Origin: Amphibalanus amphitrite | Lineage: Eukaryota > Arthropoda > Thecostraca > Balanomorpha > Balanidae | NCBI RefSeq assembly: GCF_019059575.1 | Contig: NW_024881782.1 | Coordinates: forward strand, 199,001-263,000 | Direction: 5' to 3' | Length of the DNA stretch: 64,000 bases | Shown: positions 8,024 to 32,236 of the stretch, in pieces | Numbering within the stretch: the first letter of the stretch is position 1 | How the letters are laid out: each line of letters opens with the position of its first letter | The notes under the pieces: model-generated | The model's input: the letters and a program-made list of their open reading frames with translations, nothing else | The model's database searches: none | Told to the model about the DNA's origin: nothing | Position numbers and translations under genes: made by a program

Positions 8024-11000
8024 GGGCAGCTCGAGACCGATCCGCGCGGCACCGGCCATCCTGACGCGCTCCAAGCGGCGGCGGCCGACCGACAGTCCCG
8101 TGTCGGCCATGGACCAGGGCGCCGGCCCGTCAGCGGTCAGCCAGCTCGGCCAGCAGAGCTGGGGAAGCTCACCGGCACTCAGCGTCGACAGCTTTTCGAG
8201 CACGCCTGCGGCTGGGGAGAGTCTGAGCTCGCTGGCGGCCAGCACGCCCGGCTCCATGGAGAGCCTGGACTCGGACTCGAGCAGGACGTTTCTGCGCGGC
8301 TTCGATAGCCAGTGGAAGCGGCAGCGGGCGCGCACGCCTCCGCCCTCCAGCTGGTCAAAGTGAGTGTCTCGGGAGGGACCGGGAACACAGGGAATTAGTC
8401 GGTTGATGGTTTTGTGTTGCCGGAAATGTTTAAGCTCTTTACTAGAGGTGATGTTTTTCAATAATCTAGCGGGCTTCCTAACGCAAGGCTGAAAGAAGTT
8501 TGCTGATTAGACGCGTTGTAGTGCGTTTTGCTTTTTATTTAGTGCCCTGACTGAGACGCTACATCAGTTGAGCAATATTCGATGACTTGTTGACCACTTC
8601 ATCGTGATTCCGCCACTGATTGGCTAAACTTTATTTGGACCGAAATCTGTGTAATCTACGAGTACTTGGCGCCGTAACGCCACCTCTGAATGGCGACGTT
8701 ACGCCGCCCCTGACCGTTTCGCTGACGCCGCCTCTGACCGTTGCCCTGACCGGCCACAGGTTCCGCGAGTCGCAGGTGATGCCGCCGCAGATCCGGCAGC
8801 GGGTACCGCCGCTGCCCGATCTGCAGTGGACGGAGGCCGAGGATCTCTGGAACAGTATGCGCACGAAGGACTACAGCTACAAGCGGGACCCTGCCCTCAT
8901 GAGCCACCACCCGGCGCTGAAGCCCCACATGCGAGCCATTCTCATCGACTGGCTCATTGAGGTGGGTATTTCGAATACAACGAGCGAGCTAAACGAAGAA
9001 CGAGAAATTTTTTGATCATTTAGGGAGTTACAACATGTTTAGTTTTTGTAGTGAATCAAACCTGGATGGCATTGAACTATTCAAAATATACCACATGCTG
9101 TTTTATAAGATGCAAGGCGAACTTCAGCGACGAATGAGCAGATTTCCGCTCATTTGACCCCTGTTGTTCCCCCGTCTGACTTCTGCTCATCCTGTGTTCG
9201 TCAGGTGTGTGAAGTGCACCGGCTACACAGGGAGACGTTCTACCTCGCGGTCGATTTTCTGGACCGGTATTTAAGTCGCGCCCGGGACCTGCCCAAATCA
9301 CAGCTCCAGTTAGGAGGTGAGATAACGGACAGTGGCGCGGGGCGCCATTGATGGCGCAGTGTGCAGAGCCTGCGGCTTCCGCTGTACTCTTGAAGAACGG
9401 CTGTGGTCGTTGTAGGGTTATAGTCAATTATATTCGCATCGTGTGGGTGACAAGAAAAAAAATGTCGAGCTGATTTGGCAAGTTGATGGTCTTAAAAGTG
9501 AAGCTGAACATCGGAAAAATGGTAAAAGCTGGTTCTTGCCAAGCGACAAATAGTTTGAGCAAATGGAAGCTGACTGATTTACATTCGACCACCTGGTTAT
9601 GTCGCGGTCTATGTAAGGTGATGTCGTTTGCGGTCACTATGGTATACGTTTGCGGTCTCGCTCACACGGCATGTGTTCCCATGCCTGCAGGCATCACATG
9701 CCTCATGATAGCCGCCAAGCTGGAGGAGATCTACCCGCCCAAGGTGGCCGACTTTGCCTACGTCACAGACGGCGCCTGTACCCAGGAGGACATTCAGGAC
9801 AAGGAGCTGGTCATCATGAAGGTATGTCGGGAGGGGATGGTGGTGGTTTGGAGAGGCGGCGGATACCATGGTGGTTGGTGGTGATGGGGAATAGTTGATG
9901 GGGTTGGGATGGCTCTTGGCTCTGTGGATGATTGGTTTCTGCTTGGCGTGTAATGTTTCGGCTGGATTACAGTTGGGTTGGTCTCTCCATTGGAATGTGG
10001 TTGAATGATTGAGGTTGCATTGGTTTCTCGCTGTGGGTTTACTATGGTGAATGGTCTCACGGCTGGTGGCGGTATTTGAGATGGGCAATCCTGCGTTGTA
10101 TATGGGGCTTATCAATGCTTAGGGTCTGCTGCATACCTACGCCAATGGCAGCTGTATGATTTGTGATGGACACTGACACTTTTCCTTTCCTTCTATGCGC
10201 GGTCAGATCAGCGAAGGTATGAAACTGTGGAATTAACCATTTGTTACATGTCAACGATAAGTTTTTTGTGTGTTTGTCAGTGAGTTGATTTCCACTTTCC
10301 ATTTTTAATGTTACCAGTTCACTTTTGTCAGCTGATTTTGTCCCCCTATTTTGTATTTGCATGCCTTGTGTTGGTATTTGTGCTACTAGCTGCAAGACTA
10401 ATGCAGTTTTTTTCCTAATATAGCCTCAGTTTGTAACTAATTGATTATAGAGAGGCCAATTTATTTTGTTGTGCTTCTTTTCGTGCATTTTAGGAAAAAT
10501 AAAATAATTAAACCCTTTGTGTCAGGTCAGTATCATTGTAAACGTATGGCGTATGCATAATATAATGTTCCTGCTCGCATACCACCAGCTGCTCACCGGT
10601 CCAAAAGTGGTGTCGAATTCCCGGCTAATTATGTAGACCACCTTTTATTCGCATTTCATGGGTCAAGGCTGTATTCGAAAGCGATATATTTTTGCGGTTA
10701 TCAAACTGATCACATCCAGACGTCGTACTTCCTTATTTAGTAGACTTGGCTGTTGCTTCTTGGACTCGAGAGATCAAAGTGTAGCTGAGAAGTGCAGTGC
10801 AAGCCGCCGTCGAATCACGAAAACCCTAGGCCATCTATGCACCGAAGTATTGACACACATATTTCCCTCTGTGCAGGTGTTGAACTGGTCCTTGTCACCA
10901 ATCACTCCTCAGCACTGGCTGGGCACCTATCTGCAGCTCACAAACATGGAGGAAACCAGATGCGGTGAGTAGGAACGCCTTTCGTTAGCTCAGATTGATA

Positions 11001-12673
11001 GGCTGTGATGCCGGACATTGGTCATGTGAAGTTCTGTCTGCTGTGAGGCATCAAAATTGGTTTGTTGATGGAACCAAATGTTCGTTAGCGTAACGTCCTA
11101 CTGGCAATTATTTCATTCATTCAAACTATTGCATGCGAAGAAATATGCCTCAATATTTCATTCCATCCTAGTGTTTCACCGCGGATGCAGTATTTATACG
11201 AAGAACTGGCTTTGCTCTTCACCCGTGAGTGGTTCTTTTGTGGGAGAGCCATACACTTCGAACTCATCATACCCTACAGCACTCTATAACCCTCCCCTCT
11301 CCCTTCTAGGTGACGCGGTGCCTACCCTCCCCCTCCCCCTGATAGGTGACGTGGTGATAACTCCCTCCCCTCCCCTCCGTTCAGGTGACGCGGTGACGGC
11401 CGAAGAGTTCACCAGTCCGCAGTTTTCGGCGCTCCAGTTTGTCCAGATGTGCCAGCTCATTGACCTGGCCGTCATGGACATGGCCTCGATCCAGTTCAAG
11501 TACGGTGTGCTGGCCGGCGCCGCCTTCTTCCACTTTACCAGGAACCGGGAGCTCACCATCAGGATCTCCGGTGAGACCCAGTCGCCGATTACAAGATGCA
11601 CCTGTTATAAGCTGTTTAGTTCGTCAGTTCTCTGTTGACATATCCGCTTTACCAGTAGGTACAGCGTTATTATGGGCGCAAAATGACCACCGTATTCGAC
11701 GGGCCCGTAAAAACCCTAATAAACAAACAAACAAACTGTTCGCTGTTCAGGTGACATACCAATGTGAGCCAATATTTAGTCGCATTTTTAGGTTCACATG
11801 CCACCATTCGTGGATTTTTGGTCTGACTGACTTTTGGTCGCCAAAAATGGCAATTTGCAATTCAAATGTTTCATGAATATCAATGACTTTATTTTATTTT
11901 CATTCATTGATCACCTAATCGAGCGATATAAATTCCTCAAAGACCAGCTCCTGTAGTTGTTTTGTTTAAGGTCTGCACCTGATTCTCACTGTGTCACTCG
12001 CTGACCTTCCACCCGCTTCTGTCCGTCTCAGGCTACTCGTGGTTCGAGCTGTCGCCTTGCGTCACCTGGCTGGGCCCATTTTACGTGACACTGCGTGACC
12101 ACCTGCTGTGTCACGTGCCGCCGTTTGACCGAGTGCCCGACACGGATCGACACAATATCCAGATCCACGCCGTCAACCTGCAGATCCTGGTGAGTGGATA
12201 TGATGGTGACGGGAGAGCTGGTGGGCTCCGGGGGAGTAGGGGATTGCTGTGGAGGAGTTAGTTAAGTTAATCAATCATGGTGAGGGACGGGTATGTAGTG
12301 GGTTCGAAGTCGCTGGTCTCGTCTATTCGATGAACACTAGGATTAGGTAGAACTTCGTTTTCTAGCTGTTTCTAGAGGGAATAGACTGAATCCTCTCGTA
12401 CCGATCTAGCATTGCTTCCAGCAGCTAGCGTTGCTTGTAGTATGTAGATCCCCGGAAGATTATATTCCAGACTGTTGAGCTCTTCGTGCCATTTCATGCT
12501 TGTTTTGTGTCCATGCGTTCGAACTGTGACTGACGTCCGTCCTGTCTCCCCAGGAGGAGGCGCAGAAGCGGTCTGAGGAACAGGAGGCCCAGCTCTGCAT
12601 GTCTCCTCAGGCGACCGCTGAGCGACCCGACTTCCTGACCCCTCCGGACTCGGGCGGCCGGCACCGGCCCTGA
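8024..12673 (+). CDS. CCNE: G1/S-specific cyclin E
   Basis: Regulatory subunit of CDK2 that drives entry into S phase; nuclear. Coding exons: 8024-8359, 8760-8961, 9205-9316, 9691-9821, 10877-10964, 11385-11570, 12032-12189, 12554-12673. All introns are GT-AG and every junction keeps frame, giving about 444 residues plus a short first exon. Exon 2 carries a basic Ser/Pro-rich N-terminus with RSKRRRP. The cyclin box begins in exon 3 with the hydrophobic-patch motif MRAILIDWL and continues through [16 protein letters not shown] and [11 protein letters not shown]...AYVTDGAC, all cyclin E hallmarks. The second cyclin fold is in exons 6-8. The C-terminus contains FLTPPDSG, equivalent to the Fbw7/CDK2/GSK3 phosphodegron LLTPPQSG of vertebrate cyclin E1. 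An N-terminal TPPPS just before the first donor is a possible second degron. The gene converges on URI1. The identity is secure; the extreme N-terminus is not. Confidence 0.93.
11308..11397 (+). promoter_or_regulatory. Three tandem in-frame 3' splice sites before cyclin E exon 7
   Basis: The motif AGGTGACG(C/T)GGTG occurs three times, with AG dinucleotides at 11308-11309, 11344-11345 and 11383-11384, each after a pyrimidine tract. Spacings are 36 and 39 bases, both multiples of three, and the reading frame is open from the first to the last. The third site gives the conserved cyclin fold directly. Use of the first or second site would insert 25 or 13 Pro/Leu-rich residues after the exon 6 sequence ending in ETRC. 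It looks like a small tandem duplication that copied the acceptor. Confidence 0.7.
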
Positions 12674-14772: not shown

Positions 14773-17702
14773 TCAGAGCTGGCTCCTAGAGGCCCGGAAG
14801 CGCGACAGAGGCCTCTTGGGAGGTGGGGCATCGCTAGCGGCCAACGGGGGTCCGGCCGGTGTGGTGGTCGCGTCTCGCTCCTCGATCTTGTAAGAGAACA
14901 CCTGTGGGGTGGATATTGTTGGGTCAGGCTCCGGAGGTAATGCTATTCTGTCAATCAAGAACCACTGTTGATCGGAGGCTAAGAATCTAACAAGTGCCAG
15001 AACCAGCGCAAATTTACATAGCTTCAAACATCACCACTCGCTAAAGCGTACACCCACCAGCCTCCCCACCACCTCCCCTTACCTTGGAGAGATCGGGCCG
15101 CTCGGGCTCGGCAGTCGGCGGCGGCAGAGGCTCCTCCTGTTCAGCAGAGACGATAGGCACGCTGTCTCCCGCGCCAAGCCAGCGCACCCGTCCGGCCGCG
15201 GTCGACACCGCCTCCTTGGCCTCATCGGCTGCCCAGGCGGCGCCGGCGGCCGCCGCAGCCGCCGCCGCCTCGTCCGAGGCTCTGGATGCCTGCGGCAGAG
15301 GGCTCCCTGGCCGGCCGTCGGACGGTTTCAGGATCGACACAGGTGTGCTTTCACGGGACCGACTGACAGCGTCCTCAGCCGCCGGCGGGGTGCCGTCCCC
15401 GTCTCCTTCCCCGCCGGTGGGCTCGTCCTTATCGTACATATACACTGTGTTAACGCCCGGCTCCCCGGAGAAGGAGACCCGTTTGCGGCGGCCGTCGCCC
15501 GTCTGTGGCGCCGGAGACTCGGCCGGGGAGGTGGGTGAGGCCGGCCGACTGTCGTCGTCACTGTCCAGCGCCGGCTCCGGAGTCTCGCGGATGATGACAG
15601 AGCCGTCAGAGTCAGAGTCGGCGGCAGAGTCGGCGGCTGAGTCGGCAGCGTCGTCCTCCCCGCCGCCGCCGTCGTCACCGTCGTCGGAGAGCCTGGCGGA
15701 CACGGCCACAACGATAGCGACTGTTGAGAATACCAATATCAGATGTACTGCATTGTATCGCATTACAACAATACTCATAAGCACAATATCTATTGTCAGG
15801 CACATTATCCAAAAAAAAAACAACAACATAGAAATGGGTGCAAATTCATGCTAAATAATATAGGCGCCATACAGCCTCGTTGCTGGAGCGCCCTTAAACA
15901 CCAAATCATCATCATCGTGCTAAATAATACATAAGTGCCCCTGAACGTCAATGGTGCAAAATCAAATTGCGGTGCACAAACCACTTTCGTTTGTTAGATA
16001 ACAAACGTAAACTAATGAAAAAGGGGACATTTTCGCAAGCAATCAGGCATCCAGCACCGTAGTCCGTACCTGTCGAGCTCGTCCCTGAGCTCCTCCAGTT
16101 TCTCCAGCGCGTCCAGGCGAGCCATGACGTCAGTCTGGTCGGCCACCTGTTGGCGCAGCTCGGCCTCGCGCTGCTTGTGTTCGGCCACCCGGCGACGGTG
16201 CTCCTCTGAGCGGGCAGAGGGTGAGGGGTAACTAGCGCATACGATGTGGACTTGTTCATGAAGATGAATAGTGAATACACAAGGCTTTGGCAACCATGCT
16301 CGACAGGCTGACACCCCATTGATAGTTGATACTACAGAACTGAAACAACACCAAATCTGGCAGCTGGCCCTAAAATACGCACTACTCAGCACACCGATGA
16401 TCCTTTCTAATGAAAATGTCGAATCTTTTCCAAGTTCATGAAAATGTGACAAAAGCTCGACATGACACAATATGCCACTAAAGTAGCTCCACTTAACGTT
16501 ACCCTCGCCACGTTCCATTCTCCCTTCCAATGCAACACACTCTCACTCTAACTTCCTCCACCAGCTCCCCTCCCCCTCCCGTCTCCCCGACCCGGCAGTC
16601 CCCACCGCGTTCACTCACCGCGCCACTGTTTCTCTGCTTCCTCGTCTAGCGGCTCCCTGATCTCCTGGACGTCTTTATCAGTCTCCTGGATGGCCGTCGT
16701 CTGCTCTCGCCACTTGGTAAACAGCTCCTTCTCCTTCTCCAGGTCTGACACCGTCTTATCACACTCTGCCAAGAGCGAAAGTGGGGTTAGTTAGTGTACA
16801 CCTGACTAGAAGGGGTATGATACCGTCAGAAGGTGATGGTAAGGCGATCGACCACTCACCAGCGAAAAGCAAGCGCTTTTACACGGTAGTAAATACAGTT
16901 AAAATGAAGCAAACCATGCAATGACAATAAGTACCCTTTTAAAATGCACTTGACATCACTTACTTACAGTTTACAATATCATCTATGAATAGCAACAGCC
17001 AACGTGCTAGTTTCATAACAAATACAAATTTTGTAACATACAAAATTCGGTATTGAATTGTGAATTTTCGCCATTCACTCGTGTTTCATGTTCTTCCGTT
17101 CAGGTCCGATTTCACCAAAACGATGCTACCTTTAACCTTACCCACGCTATCCCTTCCCACCCATCAATATAGGCATCAATACCTCCCGCCACTCACGTTC
17201 CAGGCGGCGGTCGACGATACCGCAGGCGGCGTGTGCACTGGTCTTCGCGAACCAGTTGTCACCAAGCAGCACCAGCAGTTCATTGGTGTGCACCAGCCGA
17301 CCGGGCGCGAACGCCAGCGGTCCCAGCGGCACCGTCACCTGGTGGGACACCTGCTGTGGCAGGGTGGTGAGCCGCTCGCGCAGCGCCCGGTAGTCGTCTG
17401 CGTACTTCCGCCAACGGCGCAAGCCCTCCTCGGTGCTGGCCAGTTTCTGTGGGAGGGGAGAGGCAAGGGTGGGGTGGAGGAGGGAGTGAATGAGAGGCGC
17501 ATTATGCAGGAATATGAGCTGACAAACCCACTTAGCTTATATTGGAGACTGCCATTAGGTTAACTGAGCCATCACCTCTACCCACCTTGTCCTGCTCAGA
17601 AACTAGCTTATCAAGCTCTGGGAGATCTCTTATAACTCGCTCAGCCATCATCTTATCCAAATCCTGAGGACCAGCAGCAGCTGGCTCTTCCTTTTCTGCC
17701 AT
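14773..17702 (-). CDS. URI1: Unconventional prefoldin RPB5 interactor 1 (URI1)
   Basis: Prefoldin-like scaffold of the R2TP/PAQosome co-chaperone, which helps assemble RNA polymerases and PIKK kinases; it binds RPB5 and PP1. Exons on the minus strand: 17702-17586, 17446-17197, 16765-16619, 16205-16070, 15692-15083, 14901-14773. All introns are GT-AG and phases match throughout, giving 462 residues. The prefoldin alpha-type domain (about residues 20-145) carries VPLGPLAFAPGRLVHTNE and LVLLGDNWFAKTSA, diagnostic of URI. Coiled coil continues to about 216. An acidic Asp/Ser stretch follows, then RKRVSF at about 286-291, a match to the RVxF PP1-docking motif. SILKP follows, and the C-terminus ends with the URI-type SRFRASR tail. 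The ATG at 17702 sits at the head of an acidic MAEKEEP start. Human URI1 is longer (about 535 residues), mainly in the low-complexity part. It diverges from BRD8. Confidence 0.92.
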
Positions 17703-19438
17703 CTTCAGTTTGTAGTTATTTCTGCAATGGAGAATGAGATAATTGTTATTGGTTTACACAATACCTATAGTACATGTGGCTATTACTATCTTATCCAACC
17801 TCTCAAAACTGGAGAAATTCACTTAATAAAAACATGAAAGGAAAGAAGATATCCTCCTCAGCTTGAAAAGTGGCATGACATATTGATACTTCAAATACTT
17901 TTACATAAAACAGCACTTATAGTGAGGTGCAACTTATAACAAAGGTGCCATAAGTTATACCTCACCACCCGTGTCCCGTCAAGTCAGGTAAGGTTAGGTA
18001 CATTAGGTAGGATAAGGTCAGGTTAGATGATGAGGTTTTTGTATTTCTGATGGTAGTGTACCTTCTTTCAGAACTAACGATTTCATGGCCAATTATCTAG
18101 GTTGATATATGGCTTGCATGGTTCGTAAAGGCGACTTTCACCTTACTTTTCAAATCAAAATACCATAGCGGCCAGCATATACGTGGAGACCATAAAACAT
18201 CCTGTTCGGACCATAAATATAATTTATTATGTTCAGACCATAAATATAATTCATTGTAGGGTCAAGTGCCAGGTCAGGTAGGTCTAAGGCCAAGGCGCTT
18301 GCGGCTCGCTCACCAGTCACCACCCCACCATTTGACTGCGCCAGAGCCCACAAATCAAAATGAAACGTGGGAGGCACGGAAGGCACACATCAAATCAGAT
18401 ACATTTATCATAATAACGATGATATTGCACAAATATTACAGAAATATCCATGATCAACGATCCCAATCCCCCGCGATCTCTACCACGCGCATGTGATTGA
18501 TTGCTGCATTTCTGGCGCATATGAGACATATTTTAAGAAAACTACTTATGAATACTCAATTTGATGACATCATAAAACCTTACCTAGGATTTAAAAGAAA
18601 TGATAAATTGTTTTGAAATTTATCTGACATACTCTTTTTGGAATTTTATTTCTTTATTTCAATCAAATTTCAAAAGTCTTACAAAATATTTAGCTAAATC
18701 TGAAATTTTGAACCTTCCTCACTTCATAAGAACAAATCAAGTCCAACGATTTCGCATTTTTCATTACGTCAGAACCTTTCGCAATTACGTTTCATTCTTC
18801 ACGATTCACAATGAATTGAGGGATTGAGGATTGAGTGCATTGCAAGGCCATAGTGCATTACGCTAAAAGCATTTATCCAACATTTATCGGTATCGACATT
18901 GCCCCTGCTGGTTGCGTGCTGGTTGTCATTTATTAGAATATGAGCTCAGGTAGATATAATAAATGAAAATGCCATCGATAGCCTTGATTTGATAGCCTTG
19001 AGTTTCAATCGCATCACTGAAATGTTAGCATAATTTAGCTATAAGCACATAACAGTAGTACTGTTATCTAATATCTACTGTTATCTACTACTGTTATCTG
19101 TGCTATAAGTAATGTCATTGAATTGAATTGACCATGATATTTGTCAGTCTGGTTAAAAATAAAACATCAGTTGTAGAGGCTTACCCCCCCCCCAGACTGG
19201 AAAAAATTCATATTACTGCCGACATGTCCAGCGTAATGGCCAGATTGTGCCAAAATTTTGGTGGTGTCTAGCATAGCTGCTAAAATTTTTGGTGCTCAGG
19301 TGAACTAAGAAATTTTGGCACAAATGGACATTTATCAGCCAGGCACCACTGGTCACGAATATTGTTCAAACCAATTGTACTGTACTTACCCATCATTGCC
19401 TTCCTCCAGCAGGTAGAACTGATTACTTTTGAGCCATC
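17703..19438. promoter_or_regulatory. URI1-BRD8 divergent intergenic region
   Basis: 1.7 kb of AT-rich DNA between two divergent start codons, probably containing both promoters. It has a short direct repeat of about 24 bases (TTCGGACCATAAATATAATT and the near copy TTCAGACCATAAATATAATT at about 18208-18256) and a C-run at 19185. A pyrimidine tract ending CCTCCAGCAG just before the BRD8 ATG could be a 3' splice site for a 5'-UTR intron. I see no TATA box that I trust. Confidence 0.4.
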
Positions 19439-21934
19439 ATGTCCACACCAACATCGGGCGGCACAGTGTCCCGGCTGGCACTGAAGCAGACGCCACTGGA
19501 CACATGGTCCACACGGGAGCACCTGGCCCTGGCTTCTGCAGTGGTGCGCAGTGGCGACCAGAACTGGATGTCGGTCAGCCGGGCCATGCGCGGCCTGGCC
19601 GACCCGGGCCGGCCGCCCGACTGGTGCTCTCAGAAGAACTGTGCCCAACAGTACACCCGTCTGCTCGAGCTGGTCGACACACCGCGACGAAAACGGGAGC
19701 GTGGCGAGACTAACGACACACCCGGCGAGAGCATCGTGCGTAAACTGCGCCAGGACAGGACGGACGAGCTGCGCCGACAGGTCACCGAGACGCGGACGGC
19801 GTACGCGGCGCTCAAGGCGCAGATCCGCCAGCTGCGCTCAGGTCAGCTGGATGCCAAGCTGGACGAGATCCAGCGGGAGATCCAGGCGGAGAAGGACGCC
19901 GACGCTCAGGAGCAGGAGCGCCAGCGGCAGTGGCTGGCCGACCGCGAAGCACAGAAGCTGGCCGTGCAGCAGGCGCTGCGCGCGCAGGTGACCAAAGCGC
20001 CGCCGCCGCCGCCGAAGCGCCGGAAGCTGACGCTGGACCGGCGGGACAGCAGTCCGTCCGAGACGGGCTCGGCGCTCTCGGAGGCGGACTTTGCCGACAG
20101 CCCGGTGTCGGAGGCGCCGGCAGCGGAGGTGAGCGGCGACGAGGCCAGTCGTGACGCCGCCGACCAGCGCCCGGCGCCGGCCTCGCCGCTGCTCACCTCT
20201 CTTCTGCGCTCACCGTCTTCAGGCCGACCGGCCGCAGCCGAGTCGAGCACCGTCACGCCGCCGGCCGGCTCTTCGACGCTGTCCCGTCTGTTGGAGCTGC
20301 CGCCCGGCTCGGCCGGTCTGCCGAGGACGAACCTCTTCCCCGAACAGAACGGGGAGACGACGGAGCAGAAGACCCCGACGGAAGTGAAGCAGGAGAGGAC
20401 GGAGACGGCACCGGCGGAAACTCCGACGCCGACTCCGACCCCGACTCCGACCCCTACTCCGACTCCGACTCCGCCCCAGCGGGCCGAGCCGGCCGTCGAA
20501 CCGGCCGTGACGCCTGAGACGGTGAAGTCGGAGCCAGCGCCGGCGGCGGAGAGAAGCTCTTCAAAGGAGGAGAGCAAGGACGGTGGAACGTCGAATGTTG
20601 CAGTGAGTAAGCCAGCCGTTCCAGCTGCCACGGCCGCCACCTCTGCTACCATCATTGTTGCGTCGACTACCGCAACCTCAGTCACAGCAAGCTCGACCTC
20701 TGGAAGCATCGCCAGCGCCGCCGCCACTGTAACTGTCCCTGCTCCCACCGCTGCTGCTTCTACTGGAGCCGCAGCTGGCACCAATACCGCCACCGCCACC
20801 GCTGGCACGACTGCCACGACGTCTACCGCTATCGCCAGTACCGAGACACGAGTGAGCGCTGCCGCCGCTCCATCTAAAGCTACTGAGGAGAGCGCTCCTG
20901 TCGCTGTCACTGCACCAACGCCAGACCCACCGGCCGCAAAGAAAGTCACCGCGGCTCAATCAAAAACTCAGCGAGTGTCCGAATCAGAGACCAAATCTGC
21001 CTCCGAAACAGCGCAAAAAGAGGTTAAGACTGAGCCGGAATCGGACCCGAAGCCGAAATCGAAACCTGCTGAGCCCGCCCCGATGGAGGTGGAGACGCCA
21101 CAGGAGCCTGCGCCGGTGACGAGCGAGATAATCGCCGTCTCCGTCGCTGCCGGTGGTGACGGCGACGGTCCCCGAGCGCCGACCGTCCCGACGCCGGCCG
21201 TGATAAAGCAGGAGCCCGTCGAGGCTGAGGAGGAGCCGGCTCCGGCGCCGGAGCCGGCCGCCGCGGCCACCTCTCCTCCCAAGGAGGCGGCGCAGTCTGT
21301 CGAGGAGCCGCCGCCGCGTCCCCCGCCTCCTCCCGTGAAGGAGGAGCGTGACGAGAGTGACGCCGAGTCGGCCACCTCTCTGGGTCCGGTGGTGCGCGCG
21401 CGCAGTGTCTCTGCGCGCAGTGAGCCTGCCTCGCAGGAGTCTGTGCCCAGCAGCCCGGCGTCTGGCGTGCTCAGTGGCGATGACGAGGAGCGACGCGACT
21501 ACAAACTCTGGAAGAAGTCCATCCTACTCTTGTGGCGTGAGTTTGCTGCTCACCGACACGCCTCCAAGTTCGCGAGGCCAATCACGAACGATCAGGCGAG
21601 TAACTACCGGGCCATCGTCAAAATGCCCATGGACCTTGCACAGCTCAAACGCAATGTGGAGAGCGGAGTCGTGACAACCACGGCGCAGTTCCAGCGTGAC
21701 CTGATGCTCATGTTCTGTAACGCAATGATGTTCAACTCCACTGACCATGAGGTACACCGGTTCGCGCGTGAGATGCAGGCTGAGTGTGTGGAAAAACTAC
21801 AGCTTCTGACTCAGGGAGATCAGCCAGCGAGCACGCCCATCAAACGGCGGGAGACTCGCGAGTCATCACGCGATGAGATGAAGAGGAAGAGATCGACGGA
21901 CGAGCGGCCCACGCCGACCAGGAAGAGACGATAG
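19439..21934 (+). CDS. BRD8: Bromodomain-containing protein 8 (BRD8), intronless
   Basis: Chromatin subunit of the TIP60/NuA4 histone acetyltransferase; nuclear. One uninterrupted frame of 831 residues. The N-terminal SANT/Myb-like BRD8 domain (about residues 20-80) has TWSTREHLALASAVVRSGDQ and a cysteine-rich SQKNCAQQY segment. A charged coiled coil spans about 106-183, followed by PPPPPKRRKL, which looks like a nuclear signal. The middle is low complexity: a TP repeat at about 329-345 (20426-20475), Ala/Thr-rich and Pro/Glu-rich blocks. The C-terminal bromodomain (about 690-792) includes MPMDLAQLKRNV in the ZA loop and MFCNAMMFNSTDHEV with the acetyl-lysine-contacting Asn. The tail is basic (KRKRST...RKRR). 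The absence of introns is notable beside the multi-exon neighbours. Start choice: the first ATG, directly before conserved sequence. Confidence 0.92.
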   Translation: MSTPTSGGTVSRLALKQTPLDTWSTREHLALASAVVRSGDQNWMSVSRAMRGLADPGRPPDWCSQKNCAQQYTRLLELVDTPRRKRERGETNDTPGESIVRKLRQDRTDELRRQVTETRTAYAALKAQIRQLRSGQLDAKLDEIQREIQAEKDADAQEQERQRQWLADREAQKLAVQQALRAQVTKAPPPPPKRRKLTLDRRDSSPSETGSALSEADFADSPVSEAPAAEVSGDEASRDAADQRPAPASPLLTSLLRSPSSGRPAAAESSTVTPPAGSSTLSRLLELPPGSAGLPRTNLFPEQNGETTEQKTPTEVKQERTETAPAETPTPTPTPTPTPTPTPTPPQRAEPAVEPAVTPETVKSEPAPAAERSSSKEESKDGGTSNVAVSKPAVPAATAATSATIIVASTTATSVTASSTSGSIASAAATVTVPAPTAAASTGAAAGTNTATATAGTTATTSTAIASTETRVSAAAAPSKATEESAPVAVTAPTPDPPAAKKVTAAQSKTQRVSESETKSASETAQKEVKTEPESDPKPKSKPAEPAPMEVETPQEPAPVTSEIIAVSVAAGGDGDGPRAPTVPTPAVIKQEPVEAEEEPAPAPEPAAAATSPPKEAAQSVEEPPPRPPPPPVKEERDESDAESATSLGPVVRARSVSARSEPASQESVPSSPASGVLSGDDEERRDYKLWKKSILLLWREFAAHRHASKFARPITNDQASNYRAIVKMPMDLAQLKRNVESGVVTTTAQFQRDLMLMFCNAMMFNSTDHEVHRFAREMQAECVEKLQLLTQGDQPASTPIKRRETRESSRDEMKRKRSTDERPTPTRKRR

Positions 21935-22453
21935 GGGGAGACGGGGAGACGGCCGTGATGGAGACACGGAGACGGAGACTCAGAGCTGACGGGACTGCTG
22001 GTGAGTGGTGAGTGTGTACTGAGTGAGTGATGAGTGCGCACTGAATGTGTGTGAAGTGCGCACCGAATGATTGAATGGTGAGTGAGTTGTTGGAGTGGTG
22101 TTTGAAGTGTAACAGTCCTCACTCTGAGAACTTTGGGGCTGTTGTCTATTCGTTGACAGGACTGGATAGACACTGGCTCGATGTTGGACACATTTTGCGT
22201 ATGGCGAGGACGATTGAGCACGATCCCGGCCCGGACAAACAAGGCTTCCTGCTCATTTCGCCCAGTTAAACTGATGTTCGTACCCGATGTGAAGCATTAT
22301 TTGCATTTTCTCGCGTTCGGCTGTCAATTAGGGTAGTATCATAATCATTGTGTTGCTCTGCCTTGGATTTGTTCACACAGCCCTTCCAATACATTCATTC
22401 TACTCAATATGTGTTTAAGATTAATGAAATAATTGGCTTTTAACGAGTGCAAT

Positions 22454-23120: not shown

Positions 23121-23799
23121 TCAAGGCAGAGCGACTTCCCTCATCCAGTAGAGCATCGTTCCTGAGTGGTACACCTCCGGGTTGTGCCACGGACTGTGGT
23201 GGTGGGCGCCGTGTGAGTGGTGGCTAACGAGAGTCCCCCACCACTCTGTCCTCGAGGCCGTCGTCAGAACGGGAAACATTTTGTAAGGATTGTCGTGAAG
23301 ACCTGTGTTGACCCAAGGCATTCTTCTTTTGATTCCATCGTTCTTGTAAGTCCAGTTGTCAAATCTTCTGACGAGGCTGACCTCCGTCTGTGTGCCCGTC
23401 TCGTCGACGAAGCTGTAGTGTTTGGGAGCGAACCAGACGCCGCCCCAGCGCTGGCGGCCCTTTTCCGCCTGCGCCTCGATCCGGTAGGCAAACTTGTCGC
23501 TGGTACTGAGGTCACGGATGGTGTCGGCGTACCGCAGGATCGAGTAGTCATCCGACAGAGAAGGGGAGAACACATTACGGGCGAAAATGCTGAGTGGGTC
23601 CCAGCCGATTTTGGAGATGGCAGTCACAAGTAGCGTCCAGCCGCCGCCGTCGTGGCTGAAGTCGCACAGCACCGGCACCGGCAGTCCGGTGAGCCAGTAG
23701 ACGCCGTCCTGGGCGACGCCCTGCCGCTGCAACTGCAGACAGGAACGGGCGCAGGCGCGCTCGGCCGGCTCCTGGTAGGTGGCCGCTCCGCCGGGCAGA
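23121..23799 (-). pseudogene. Truncated fibrinogen-related gene (duplicate 3' fragment)
   Basis: Minus-strand open sequence coding for the same C-terminal domain as the intact gene at 24833-26128. The last 204 codons give an identical protein, ending REVALP. It is cut at 23799 by the duplication junction, so it lacks the start codon, signal peptide and coiled coil. No promoter is included. It is probably not expressed as a protein, or is an assembly artefact. Confidence 0.85.
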
Positions 23800-24149
23800 G
23801 AAGTGTAACAGTCCTCACTCTGAGAACTTTGGGGCTGTTGTCTATTCGTTGACAGGACTGGATAGACACTGGCTCGATGTTGGACACATTTTGCGTATGG
23901 CGAGGACGATTGAGCACGATCCCGGCCCGGACAAACAAGGCTTCCTGCTCATTTCGCCCAGTTAAACTGATGTTCGTACCCGATGTGAAGCATTATTTGC
24001 ATTTTCTCGCGTTCGGCTGTCAATTAGGGTAGTATCATAATCATTGTGTTGCTCTGCCTTGGATTTGTTCACACAGCCCTTCCAATACATTCATTCTACT
24101 CAATATGTGTTTAAGATTAATGAAATAATTGGCTTTTAACGAGTGCAAT

Positions 24150-24151
<2 letters not shown>

Positions 24152-24219
<68 letters not shown>
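24152..24219. repeat. (CT)n microsatellite, 68 bases
   Basis: Perfect CT run in the second unit of the tandem duplication, 16 bases longer than its counterpart at 22456-22507. Confidence 0.95.
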
Positions 24220-24222
<3 letters not shown>

Positions 24223-24832
24223 CCTCCTCTAACTCATTCCTTTCTCTCTCCTCTCTGTCTCCGTCTCTCTGCGATGTCATTACAATGCCCTCACCACACA
24301 GTACACACAGCTCATATGCAGGCGAGAGAAACGTCCGAAGGCAGGAGTTTATTTAGACTTGCACTTGGCAGCAGCGAAGTAATCTGCCTTAGTAACAGGG
24401 AACCAAGGGAACCCTGTGCGACACCCAGTTAGAGCGCGATACCAGCGCCGCCATGCGGTACTCGTACGTTAGCAGCGCCATCGGGCGGCTATCGCCGAAA
24501 ACTCACAACACTACAGGCACCAAAGTTCTTTGTTGAGTCATAGACCACTATATACCCAAATAGTGGTCTATGGTTGAGTGGTATATAGTGGTCTATGGTT
24601 GAGTTTGTTTTGTTTGTTTTGTTGGGTTAGGCCCTTTCTGTCTGACAAGACCATTGCAGAGCTGGGAAGCTGATAGGAATAAGGGGAGACATTGGTTTGG
24701 GTATGTGCCCTAGCGAGTCACCGGGGCTGAGACCGCCCCGACCAAAGTTCTAAGTTCTTGCTCTGCATTACACGAATATATTTTCCACATGACCAACATA
24801 ACACACTAAGTTCACGAATGATTTTGTACACG

Positions 24833-26128
24833 TCAAGGCAGAGCGACTTCCCTCATCCAGTAGAGCATCGTTCCTGAGTGGTACACCTCCGGGTTGTGCC
24901 ACGGACTGTGGTGGTGGGCGCCGTGTGAGTGGTGGCTAACGAGAGTCCCCCACCACTCTGTCCTCGAGGCCGTCGTCAGAACGGGAAACATTTTGTAAGG
25001 ATTGTCGTGAAGACCTGTGTTGACCCAAGGCATTCTTCTTTTGATTCCATCGTTCTTGTAAGTCCAGTTGTCAAATCTTCTGACGAGGCTGACCTCCGTC
25101 TGTGTGCCCGTCTCGTCGACGAAGCTGTAGTGTTTGGGAGCGAACCAGACGCCGCCCCAGCGCTGGCGGCCCTTTTCCGCCTGCGCCTCGATCCGGTAGG
25201 CAAACTTGTCGCTGGTACTGAGGTCACGGATGGTGTCGGCGTACCGCAGGATCGAGTAGTCATCCGACAGAGAAGGGGAGAACACATTACGGGCGAAAAT
25301 GCTGAGTGGGTCCCAGCCGATTTTGGAGATGGCAGTCACAAGTAGCGTCCAGCCGCCGCCGTCGTGGCTGAAGTCGCACAGCACCGGCACCGGCAGTCCG
25401 GTGAGCCAGTAGACGCCGTCCTGGGCGACGCCCTGCCGCTGCAACTGCAGACAGGAACGGGCGCAGGCGCGCTCGGCCGGCTCCTGGTAGGTGGCCGCTC
25501 CGCCGGGCAGAGGAGCGGGCCGCTGCTGACAGGCCGGCTCCTGATTCTGACCCGCCTCCTGGGGCTGGCCCCCGACTGGAGTCGCCTCTGGCTGCTCCCT
25601 CGGCCGCCTCACGAGGTCCCCCTCGGCCGGCGTCGGAGCTGGCGTGCCCTGCGGTGCCTGCTCAGTCTCGACACTCACCTCCGCTGTCCCGGGCGGGCTG
25701 ACCCCAGTTTGAGCCCGCTCCTGACGCCGCTCAGACTGCGGGGGAGGTCGGCAGGCGCCGACCGGCCCTGTCGACCCGTCCCGGCCGCCGCCGGCCAGCA
25801 CCGACAGCTGCAGCGCCGTCACGTCGTGGACGACCGAGTCGAGCCGCAGCTGCTGTCGCGTCAGCTCGGCCAGCGCCCGGTGTCCGGCGTCGGCGCCCGC
25901 CTGCAGCTGCTCCAGCCGGCCGGCCAGCTGCGCCAGCTGCCAGCCGCACTGGGCGCGCGACACGGCGCCCTCGACCAGCGGGTTCAGCAGCGCCGACAGC
26001 TGCTCGGCTGCCGACGGCTGGTAGGAGACGGCTGGCGGCGGCTGGTCGGCTGGTGGTGGCTGCTGGGAGGGCAGCGCTGCCGCCACCGTCAGCACCGAGA
26101 GGAGACACGCCATCCGGCGGACAGCCAT
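24833..26128 (-). CDS. Secreted fibrinogen-related protein, copy A
   Basis: Intronless, 431 residues. The ATG at 26128 is chosen because it starts a signal peptide (MAVRRMACLLSVLTVAAALP). Next come a Pro/Gln-rich stretch, then a Leu/Gln/Ala-rich helical segment likely to form a coiled coil (about residues 40-105), then a Pro/Gln/Glu-rich linker. A fibrinogen C-terminal-like domain fills about 215-431. It opens with CARSC...GVYWL and has the family signature LCDFSHDGGGWTLL, then DDYSILRYADTIRDL, GGVWFAPKHYSFV and a histidine-rich loop before HSGTMLYWMREVALP. The second half departs from classical vertebrate fibrinogen domains. Such arthropod proteins are often extracellular lectins or immune recognition factors; the role here is inference. 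Its inverted paralogue is at 30947-32236. Confidence 0.8.
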   Translation of the reverse strand: MAVRRMACLLSVLTVAAALPSQQPPPADQPPPAVSYQPSAAEQLSALLNPLVEGAVSRAQCGWQLAQLAGRLEQLQAGADAGHRALAELTRQQLRLDSVVHDVTALQLSVLAGGGRDGSTGPVGACRPPPQSERRQERAQTGVSPPGTAEVSVETEQAPQGTPAPTPAEGDLVRRPREQPEATPVGGQPQEAGQNQEPACQQRPAPLPGGAATYQEPAERACARSCLQLQRQGVAQDGVYWLTGLPVPVLCDFSHDGGGWTLLVTAISKIGWDPLSIFARNVFSPSLSDDYSILRYADTIRDLSTSDKFAYRIEAQAEKGRQRWGGVWFAPKHYSFVDETGTQTEVSLVRRFDNWTYKNDGIKRRMPWVNTGLHDNPYKMFPVLTTASRTEWWGTLVSHHSHGAHHHSPWHNPEVYHSGTMLYWMREVALP

Positions 26129-26316
26129 TTCGGCTGCTGAGTGAGCGACAGCGGGGTAGTAGAGACCTTCACTGATGCGGCGGGGAATACAGTCCAGCCA
26201 GCAACTACCACCTCGCTGATAAGAGTCCACCGGGCGCCGACAGCAAGCCGACGGCTGACAGATTCACAGCTCCAATGACCGGGCAGTCTGGGTGTGCTGT
26301 GTGATCTACTGGTGGC

Positions 26317-30100: not shown

Positions 30101-30752
30101 GCAAAGGTTGGCTTCTTATGAAAAGATTGTGTGTGAAATTTGCGACACGGATGGGCAAAAATGTATTTTTGCTAGCATTGTAGGTACCTACTTTTGTTTG
30201 GTCCCATTACCTAACTGCAACAATGATCTTTCTTTGACCGACTGGAAAGTAAACATACCTGGCTAAAGATGTCTTATTGATTGTGGCGACCTTTCCAACA
30301 AAAGTTACCACTAATCGTAACACAACATAGGGAGCCGAGTTAGGAATTAGGAAAGGAAGTCCTCGATAGCTTACGATCGGAGCATTATAACGCTACGAAG
30401 CAAGTCGAAAAATTCGTGTACATACGAGTACGTGTATATGTATTTCCATTCCATCGCCAAAGTGCTGTACAGTCGGCATTCTGCTTCATTATTTCACAAT
30501 GCTGGATGCTGGTTCTTATTATGTCAATTCGCACCGCGGCACTAGGATGTCAACGTTCCGGTTAATTCATTATTACAACGTTTATTTTCACTCTACCAGC
30601 ATACGAGTATGTTTACCATGCTGTGTGCGTCATTTGATGTGGAAAGGCCGGGCTTATACAGTCCAGCCGTATCGGACAGTTTGTAAATAAGCACAACGTG
30701 AGGAATCACATGTCCAACGACCAATATCGAAGGTTCCCAGCCCCATTTCACC

Positions 30753-30760
30753 AATATAAG
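30753..30760 (+). promoter_or_regulatory. Conserved TATA-like element upstream of copy B gene
   Basis: AATATAAG, within CACCAATATAAGCCACCAGT, about 190 bases before the ATG at 30947. It mirrors the element at 26317-26324 in the inverted paralogue. Confidence 0.4.
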
Positions 30761-30946
30761 CCACCAGTGGCTCACGACAGCAGACCCAGACTGCGCAGTC
30801 ACCAGAGCTGTGAGGCTGCGAGCTGCTGGTTGCTGTCGCCATTCGGTGGACTCTGCCAGCGAGGCGGCACTTGCTGGTTGGACTGTGTTCCCCGCCGCAT
30901 CAGTGAAGGTCTCTACTGCCCCGCTGTCGCTCACTCAACAGCCGAC

Positions 30947-32236
30947 ATGGCTGTCCGCCGAGTGGCGTGTCTCCTCTCGGTGCTGACGGTGGCAGCAGCG
31001 CTCCCCTCCCAGCAGCCACCACCAGCCGACCAGCCACCGCCAGCCGTCTCCTACCAGCCGTCGGCAGCCGAGCAGCTGTCGGCGCTGCTGAACCCGCTGG
31101 TCGAGGGCGCCGTGTCGCGCGCCCAGTGCGGCTGGCAGCTGGGGCAGCTGGCCGGCCGGCTGGAGCGGCTGCAGGCGGGCGCCGACGCCGGACACCGGGC
31201 GCTGGCCGAGCTGACGCGACAGCAGCTGCGGCTCGACTCGGTCGTCCACGACGTGACGGCGCTGCAGCTGTCGGTGCTGGCCGGCGGCGGCCGAGACGGG
31301 TCGACAGGGACTGCCGGCGCCTGCCGACCTCCGCCGCAGGCTGAGCGGCGTCAGAAGTGGGCTCAGACTAGGGTCAGCCCGCCCGGGACAGCGGAGGTGA
31401 GTGAGACTGAGGTGGCGCCGCAGGGCACGCCAGCTCCGACGCCGGCCGAGGGGGACCTCGTGCGGCGGACGAGGGAGCAGCCAGAGGCGACTCCAGTCGG
31501 GAGCCAGCCCCAGGAGGCGGGTCAGATTCAGGAGCCGGCCTGTCAGCAGCGGCCCGCTCCTCTGCCCGGCGGAGCGGCCACCTACCAGGAGCCGGCCGAG
31601 CGCGCCTGCGCCCGCTCCTGTCTGCAGTTGCAGCGGCAGGGCGTCGCCCAGGACGGCGTCTACTGGCTCACCGGACTGCCGGTGCCGGTGCTGTGCGACT
31701 TCAGCCACGACGACGGCGGCTGGACCCTGCTTGTGACCGCCATATCCCGCCAGGGCTGGGACCCACTCAGCATTTTCGCCCGCAACGTGTACTCCCCTTC
31801 TCTTTCGGACGACTACTCGATCCTGCGGTACGCCGACACCATCCGTGACCTCAGTACCAGCGACAGATTCGCCTACCGGATCGAATCACAGGCGGAGAAG
31901 GGCCGCCAGCGCTGGGGCGGCGTCTGGTTCGCTCCCAAACACTACAGCTTCGTCGACGAGACGGGCACACAGACGGAGGTCAGTCTCGTCAGAAGATTCG
32001 ACGACTGGATATACAAGGGTGACGGCATCAAGCGAAGGATGCCTTGGATCAACACAGGTGGTGAGAATCCTTACAGGATGCATCCCGTGCTGACGACGGC
32101 GTCCAAGACCGAGTGGTGGGGCACTCTGGTGACGCACCACACCTACACAAGGCATAACCACAGCCCGTGGTACAATCCTGATGTGGTGCACTCCGGAACA
32201 ATGCTCTACTGGATGAGGGAAGTCGCTTTGCCCTGA
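30947..32236 (+). CDS. Secreted fibrinogen-related protein, copy B
   Basis: Intronless, 429 residues. The frame is open further upstream (to 30698), but the ATG at 30947 starts a signal peptide (MAVRRVACLLSVLTVAAALP) equivalent to copy A. The layout is the same: signal peptide, Pro/Gln-rich segment, helical Leu/Gln-rich segment with CGWQLGQL, Pro-rich linker, then a fibrinogen-like domain with CARSC, LCDFSHDDGGWTLL, DDYSILRYADTIRDL and the same HSGTMLYWMREVALP end. Differences from copy A cluster in the linker and in the late loop, which reads HHTYTRHNHSPWYNPDVVHS here. It faces copy A head to head across about 4.8 kb between start codons. Confidence 0.8.
   Translation: MAVRRVACLLSVLTVAAALPSQQPPPADQPPPAVSYQPSAAEQLSALLNPLVEGAVSRAQCGWQLGQLAGRLERLQAGADAGHRALAELTRQQLRLDSVVHDVTALQLSVLAGGGRDGSTGTAGACRPPPQAERRQKWAQTRVSPPGTAEVSETEVAPQGTPAPTPAEGDLVRRTREQPEATPVGSQPQEAGQIQEPACQQRPAPLPGGAATYQEPAERACARSCLQLQRQGVAQDGVYWLTGLPVPVLCDFSHDDGGWTLLVTAISRQGWDPLSIFARNVYSPSLSDDYSILRYADTIRDLSTSDRFAYRIESQAEKGRQRWGGVWFAPKHYSFVDETGTQTEVSLVRRFDDWIYKGDGIKRRMPWINTGGENPYRMHPVLTTASKTEWWGTLVTHHTYTRHNHSPWYNPDVVHSGTMLYWMREVALP

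Follow-up and report, generated by a model that had tools for sequence, protein, structure and literature searches.

Minisatellites that duplicate the boundaries of introns, called 'mirages', are known from lancelets, where they are reported to leave splicing undisturbed (PMC3087553, PMC3902484). In Drosophila, novel introns have been reported to arise when coding sequence that carries a proto-splice site is duplicated in tandem (Lehmann 2010, PMC2891723), and tandem acceptors lying 3, 6 or 9 bases apart have been described as well (PMC2279118). In the open-licence literature the term 'mirage' for such minisatellites was found for lancelets only, and, as far as titles and the beginnings of abstracts indicate, no earlier arthropod case of a multiplied splice junction was recognised there. 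The locus described here, a 3′ splice site present three times in tandem in a cyclin E gene, appears to be a splice-junction minisatellite of this known kind in what is apparently a new lineage, the arthropods.

The window, by which the whole analysed stretch of 64,000 nucleotides is meant, has a GC content of 51% and a CpG observed/expected ratio of 0.995. The cuticle-protein family Chitin_bind_4 (PF00379), which is typical of arthropods, gave at least 150 matches in the genome (705 candidates, of which 150 were scored) and none in 14 control genomes of bacteria and archaea, and the source genome was taken to be that of an arthropod because of these many cuticle-protein matches; a lancelet source, brought into consideration by the mirage papers, was rejected for the same reason.

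The cyclin E gene and its triplicated acceptor

The gene was assigned to cyclin E by comparison with PDB sequences, the ten best of which were all cyclin E1 (274.6-288.2 bits, best E 7.5e-85), presumably human chains; among the cyclins other than E the best and next after E1 was cyclin A2 (108.6 bits), followed by B1 (96 bits) and D-type (78.2 bits). The partial protein model used here comprised six exons through the exon 11385..11570, numbered exon 7 in the preliminary description, and has no defined 5′ end. The features around the array are as follows (window coordinates).

10877..10964, plus strand: cyclin E exon upstream of the array, with the donor after 10964 (exon model and translation)
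10965..11384, plus strand: intron ending inside the array (exon model)
11286..11290, plus strand: ATAAC, putative branch site for A1 (by eye; no strict YTNAY)
11288..11397, plus strand: tandem array of three 3′ splice site cassettes, each with pyrimidine tract, AG and the first 11 exon bases (TRF and shuffles)
11308..11320, plus strand: core of cassette 1, AGGTGACGCGGTG, candidate acceptor A1, would-be intron end 11309 (exact motif)
11344..11356, plus strand: core of cassette 2, AGGTGACGTGGTG, candidate acceptor A2, would-be intron end 11345 (exact motif)
11357..11361, plus strand: ATAAC, putative branch site for A3 (by eye; no strict YTNAY)
11383..11395, plus strand: core of cassette 3, AGGTGACGCGGTG, acceptor A3, intron end 11384 (taken as the normal site)
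11385..11570, plus strand: cyclin E exon following the array, in its A3 form (exon model; cyclin E1 match)

Exact matches to the motif AGGTGACGYGGTG in the window begin at 11308, 11344 and 11383, so that the steps between cassettes are 36 and 39 bases, and pyrimidines occupy 17/19, 16/19 and 18/19 positions ahead of A1, A2 and A3, respectively. These counts agree with the preliminary description of this DNA, in which three motif copies with pyrimidine tracts of their own had been noticed at the same steps. The array was recorded by TRF at 11288-11397 with a period of 36, 3.0 copies, 76% matches and a score of 112, and it bridges the intron-exon boundary 11384/11385. For the dinucleotide shuffles (500 for each stretch), the best score at periods of at least 12 was 47 for 11250-11400 and 51 for 10965-11400, the score of 112 being reached in 0/500 shuffles of either stretch, and two motif copies were present in 0/2000 shuffles of 10965-11400. 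The earlier reading of the repeat as a tandem duplication of the acceptor is borne out. When donor 10964 was joined to A1, A2 or A3 of the window copy, the reading frame was kept with zero stops, and the A1 and A2 forms carried 25 and 13 extra residues, respectively, as compared with the A3 form; that the steps are multiples of three, that they are free of stops and that 13 or 25 residues would be added had all been stated beforehand, and for the window copy translation gives the same.

The distances from the branch A of ATAAC, chosen by eye, to the intron end are 20 bases for A1 and 24 bases for A3. These branch sites are putative, since in a strict YTNAY scan sites were found for A1 and A3 only at -43 or -44, and for A2 none within the scanned range.

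The junction codon is residue 290 of the partial protein, as counted on the PDB alignment. It is preceded by the Pfam Cyclin_N match (residues 140-267) and followed by a local Cyclin_C match (residues 312-369), the score of which (21.4 bits) is just below the cut-off of 22. The earlier location of the extra residues within the second cyclin fold is reasonable. At the junction PDB cyclin E1 is 8 residues shorter, and this alignment gap indicates that the place tolerates a change of length.

Downstream of cyclin E, the window holds a prefoldin-subunit match (17150-17536, minus strand) and a large bromodomain-containing open frame (19433-21931, plus strand), after which an array of GTGAGT-like units is found at 22001-22074; this array could be a donor-side one in an untranslated exon. 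Three closely similar large open frames, fibrinogen-like by eye, were seen in 23121-26263 and 30638-32236, two being tandem neighbours on the minus strand and the third lying on the plus strand, and no Pfam match at E 0.001 was obtained for the two that were tested.

The second cyclin E copy

The genome (807,550,619 bases, 2644 contigs) was searched with window 10860-11600 as the query, and two places were matched, namely the window itself and C389:207608-208342, with 97% identity over bases 1-728 of the 741-base query. The surroundings of C389 are collinear with the window from roughly 1 kb to 28 kb, with breaks and insertions; the large pieces are mostly 91-94% identical and one 3.6-kb piece is 99.6% identical. 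Across the eight modelled exons (443 codons), the window copy differs from C389 at 30 codons synonymously and at 2 nonsynonymously, from which both coding sequences are judged to be constrained. Such constraint would speak indirectly for regular splicing in spite of the array. Many kinase, PDZ and cuticle matches occur in the genome as near-identical pairs, and the assembly therefore probably holds both haplotypes of many loci, with a recent duplication possible for any one pair. C389 is to be read either as an allele or as a recently arisen paralogue, both copies belonging to a single assembly.

The same three cassettes are present in C389 at steps of 36 and 40, with one extra base (TTCAG to TTCTAG) immediately ahead of the last of the three exon starts; whether as allele or paralogue, its array has 3 units against 3 in the window, the lengths differing by 1 base. 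AG|GTGACG was found in 3/3 units of both copies, and the site of cassette 1 is TTGCAG in C389 vs TTCTAG in the window. Between the window copy and C389, equivalent cassettes are the same at 33/35, 33/35 and 34/36 positions, and non-equivalent cassettes within one copy at 27-30 of 36-38 positions. Since the equivalent ones are the closer, the triplication predates the split of the cyclin E copies.

The product from A3 of C389 is normal cyclin E, and the products from A1 and A2 run for 25 and 13 residues, respectively, beyond the junction codon and then reach a stop. The frame between the acceptors is therefore not preserved in all gene copies (36/39 in the window, 36/40 with stops in C389), and the shared frame was either lost in one cyclin E copy or gained in the other. 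In the preliminary description, frame-safe potential isoforms were proposed, which as a property of the gene are not supported by the steps and stops of C389; an out-of-frame length of the repeat in other individuals, named there as the contrary observation, was in substance found, within one assembly and not in another individual.

Multiplied junctions elsewhere in the genome

Genome-wide, 66 matches to AGGTGACGYGGTG were counted vs 86 to its reversed control, so the motif is not enriched and has no special status by itself. It is clustered in four places, which are the two cyclin E copies, C72 and C1038, and by our own reading of the sequence the latter two clusters are multiplied acceptors too. 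C72 has three cassettes at steps of 67 and 62 before an Ig-like exon, and C1038 has four at steps of 34, 31 and 31 before an SH3-like exon (both exons named by eye), the farther matches of the latter being 22/26 bases. In C1119, the partner of C72, the first cassette is without AG and its C-rich tract is shorter; in C2297, the partner of C1038 (82% identity), there is one extra unit and the upstream copies are altered. Because both clusters were found via the motif shared with cyclin E, they are uninformative on frequency. Local repeats were examined around 33 of the 66 matches (28 loci; 3 others are the window's own and 30 were left out), and, besides C389, C72 and C1038, none above threshold was found at the 25 other sites, most of which do not resemble acceptors.

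Paired CCTTNCAGG was tried as a genome-wide measure of splice-site enrichment (136 vs 73 for the reversed control). The few matches displayed include a 51-base unit that recurs, as well as a 35-base array, and 51-base matches come up throughout the list, so that the excess was not taken as splice-site enrichment. A match of 51 bases, with CCTTTCAGG at either end, was seen on several contigs (e.g. C1, C7) and resembles part of a dispersed repeat.

Arrays that adjoin an acceptor were also found in cyclin E itself and in one of the kinase loci sampled (30/140 matches).

8667..8752, window, plus strand: second cyclin E array, about 24-base units, ending 7 bases before the intron end at another acceptor (exon from 8760; TRF rows 8667-8713, 8701-8750 and 8708-8752)
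1056-1182, kinase locus L057 (C104): 4.6 copies of a 28-base unit that has pyrimidine and branch-like motifs, adjoining a kinase-exon acceptor

No counterpart of the second cyclin E array was seen at the corresponding C389 acceptor, where other sequence is present, and the kinase partner L058 (C1764) has about 1.5 copies of the 28-base unit by eye. CTGAC-like branch motifs were observed in the second cyclin E array. In a PDZ array on C83 all four units have a CTGAC of their own before the AG, so that the whole site was copied as a module there; this is less clear in cyclin E.

For an estimate of frequency, 20 acceptor and 20 donor flanks were taken from those of the 137 PDZ matches in the genome that are cut within the domain, the match starting at profile position 24-35 for acceptors and ending at 49-73 for donors. 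The junctions inside a TRF array numbered 2/20 for acceptors and 1/20 for donors, unchanged at score thresholds of 40, 50 and 80, in a small sample that was picked by hand before the sequences were seen, with other eligible matches unused and the junctions set by eye.

L089, PDZ acceptor array: 82 bases, 3.8 units (TRF)
L086, PDZ acceptor array: 96 bases, about 3 units (TRF)
L105 (C106), PDZ donor array, 52-291: donor site repeated in units of 21 bases, 10.9 units (TRF)

As the background, the window, 30 kinase loci and three 9.9-kb stretches (556 pieces, including the cyclin E array of the window, haplotype pairs and one partly overlapping stretch) were used, in which 2213 of 200,716 bases (1.1%) were inside arrays (score at least 50, period at least 15). 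The binomial P for at least 3/40 junctions in arrays was 0.0097, or 0.0078 with three near-identical pairs counted once, and separately it was 0.020 for acceptors and 0.20 for donors. The excess of arrays at PDZ junctions over the background is suggestive.

The partners of these other loci differ in their arrays more than the two cyclin E copies do. Where L089 has at least four cassettes, in an array that reaches the edge of the retrieved piece, its likely partner has two; the likely partner of L105, L117 (C201), has a different donor array and, farther on, three acceptor-like unit copies; and partner L116 has two cassettes by motif, with no array by TRF. By eye, the L085 acceptor has the look of a two-copy duplication and the L109 donor that of a decayed one, both below the TRF threshold and uncounted, and L078 and L087 have arrays elsewhere in the intron, which were likewise left uncounted.

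Steps in multiples of three were found in 6/22 cases over the ten acceptor arrays measured, which is consistent with the one in three given by chance, the steps being non-independent (4/10 arrays are partners of others) and including the C1119 unit without AG and a C2297 step that skips a decayed unit. The cyclin E array of the window is the only one of the ten with all steps in frame.

Explanation of the array and comparison with known systems

The cyclin E array is probably a splice-junction minisatellite of the 'mirage' kind, tolerated by the gene, with A3 in use and the upstream cassettes as decoys whose frame is accidental. A segment over the intron end and the first exon bases would have been duplicated in tandem twice before the cyclin E copies diverged, presumably by slippage or unequal exchange. 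The exon-proximal cassette would stay a complete acceptor and serve the normal protein, and a duplication spanning the acceptor can be tolerated because this copy retains the signals; the upstream cassettes would remain in the intron and drift, A1 and A2 being ignored or rarely used. A3 (11384) is taken as the used site, since it alone gives cyclin E in both copies, as judged from the frame of C389 and from the protein, and the preservation of frame in the window array looks like chance. The strongest counterpoint is A1, which is the earliest AG to follow a pyrimidine tract of its own and which in C389 has a good TTGCAG, against TTCTAG at A3 there; first-AG scanning could favour it if the upstream branch site were used. 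A further counterpoint is that no strict YTNAY was found nearer than -43 to A3.

If A1, A2 and A3 were all in use as functional alternative acceptors, cyclin E would be made in forms whose second cyclin fold carries, in a loop, 25, 13 or 0 additional Pro/Leu-rich residues. Such use would suit the three in-frame, stop-free sites of the window copy and the variable length of the junction place relative to cyclin E1, and with the 25 residues inserted the Cyclin_C score falls by little, to 20.8 bits from 21.4, a change that neither supports nor excludes isoforms. However, C389 is unable to make the two longer forms in spite of its constrained coding sequence, and the other arrays do not keep frame, by which the isoforms are rendered improbable; as the main reading they were set aside on account of the broken frame in C389.

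A regulatory role of the decoys, in which occasional use of A1 or A2 would lower the output of cyclin E (in C389 via a stop and mRNA decay, in the window copy via an altered protein), could be read from the stops reached within 25 residues by A1 and A2 of C389 and from the good acceptor core TTGCAG of its A1. As the outcomes differ between the copies, no common mechanism would have been kept, and arrays of the same kind lie at unrelated genes; we consider this role very improbable. Equally improbable is an artefact of assembly or sequencing, be it in the array or in the additional C389 base: errors are common in pyrimidine-rich repeats, and many loci seem to be present twice in the assembly, but the three cassettes occur with matching differences on two contigs, and the change from TTCAG to TTCTAG lengthens no single-base run.

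Read as a tolerated minisatellite, one of several, the array means something more ordinary for cyclin E itself, and its greater interest lies with the genome. It is conceivable, though somewhat doubtful, that the introns of this arthropod keep growing from their edges, the junctions being repeatedly duplicated, the copy at the exon used and the older copies pushed inward, with several per cent of acceptors and donors carrying arrays that differ between haplotypes. If this were true, decaying older copies would occasionally supply new acceptors, exon extensions or introns. Should arrays of this kind be common in an arthropod as well, spare splice sites and variation in intron length would have a general origin in them, and paired assembled loci would show directly how genes survive multiplied splice signals. 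In annotation, sequence alone is no ground for calling isoforms from additional in-frame acceptors of such arrays.

Compared with the tandem acceptors reported in PMC2279118, the cyclin E array likewise has several acceptors before one exon, possibly in frame, but these are 36-40 bases apart, have pyrimidine tracts of their own and come from duplication of the whole site. With the novel Drosophila introns, as reported in PMC2891723, a tandem duplication around an AG/GY motif is shared; there an exonic duplicate gave rise to a new intron, whereas in cyclin E the end of an existing intron was multiplied and no new intron is evident. From the lancelet mirages, as reported in PMC3087553 and PMC3902484, the array differs in its unit (36-40 bases vs 150-160 in BflGb6 and 10-72 in Adh3), in its arthropod genome and in the evidence, which was RT-PCR for regular splicing in lancelets and is genomic sequence here. 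In both, tandem copies extend over the splice site and part of the exon, the AG/GT signals are present in many copies with the last acceptor still available, and the likeness may reach to copy number, which in lancelets varies between haplotypes, as with the 6 and 3 units of BflGb6 (PMC3087553, PMC3902484).
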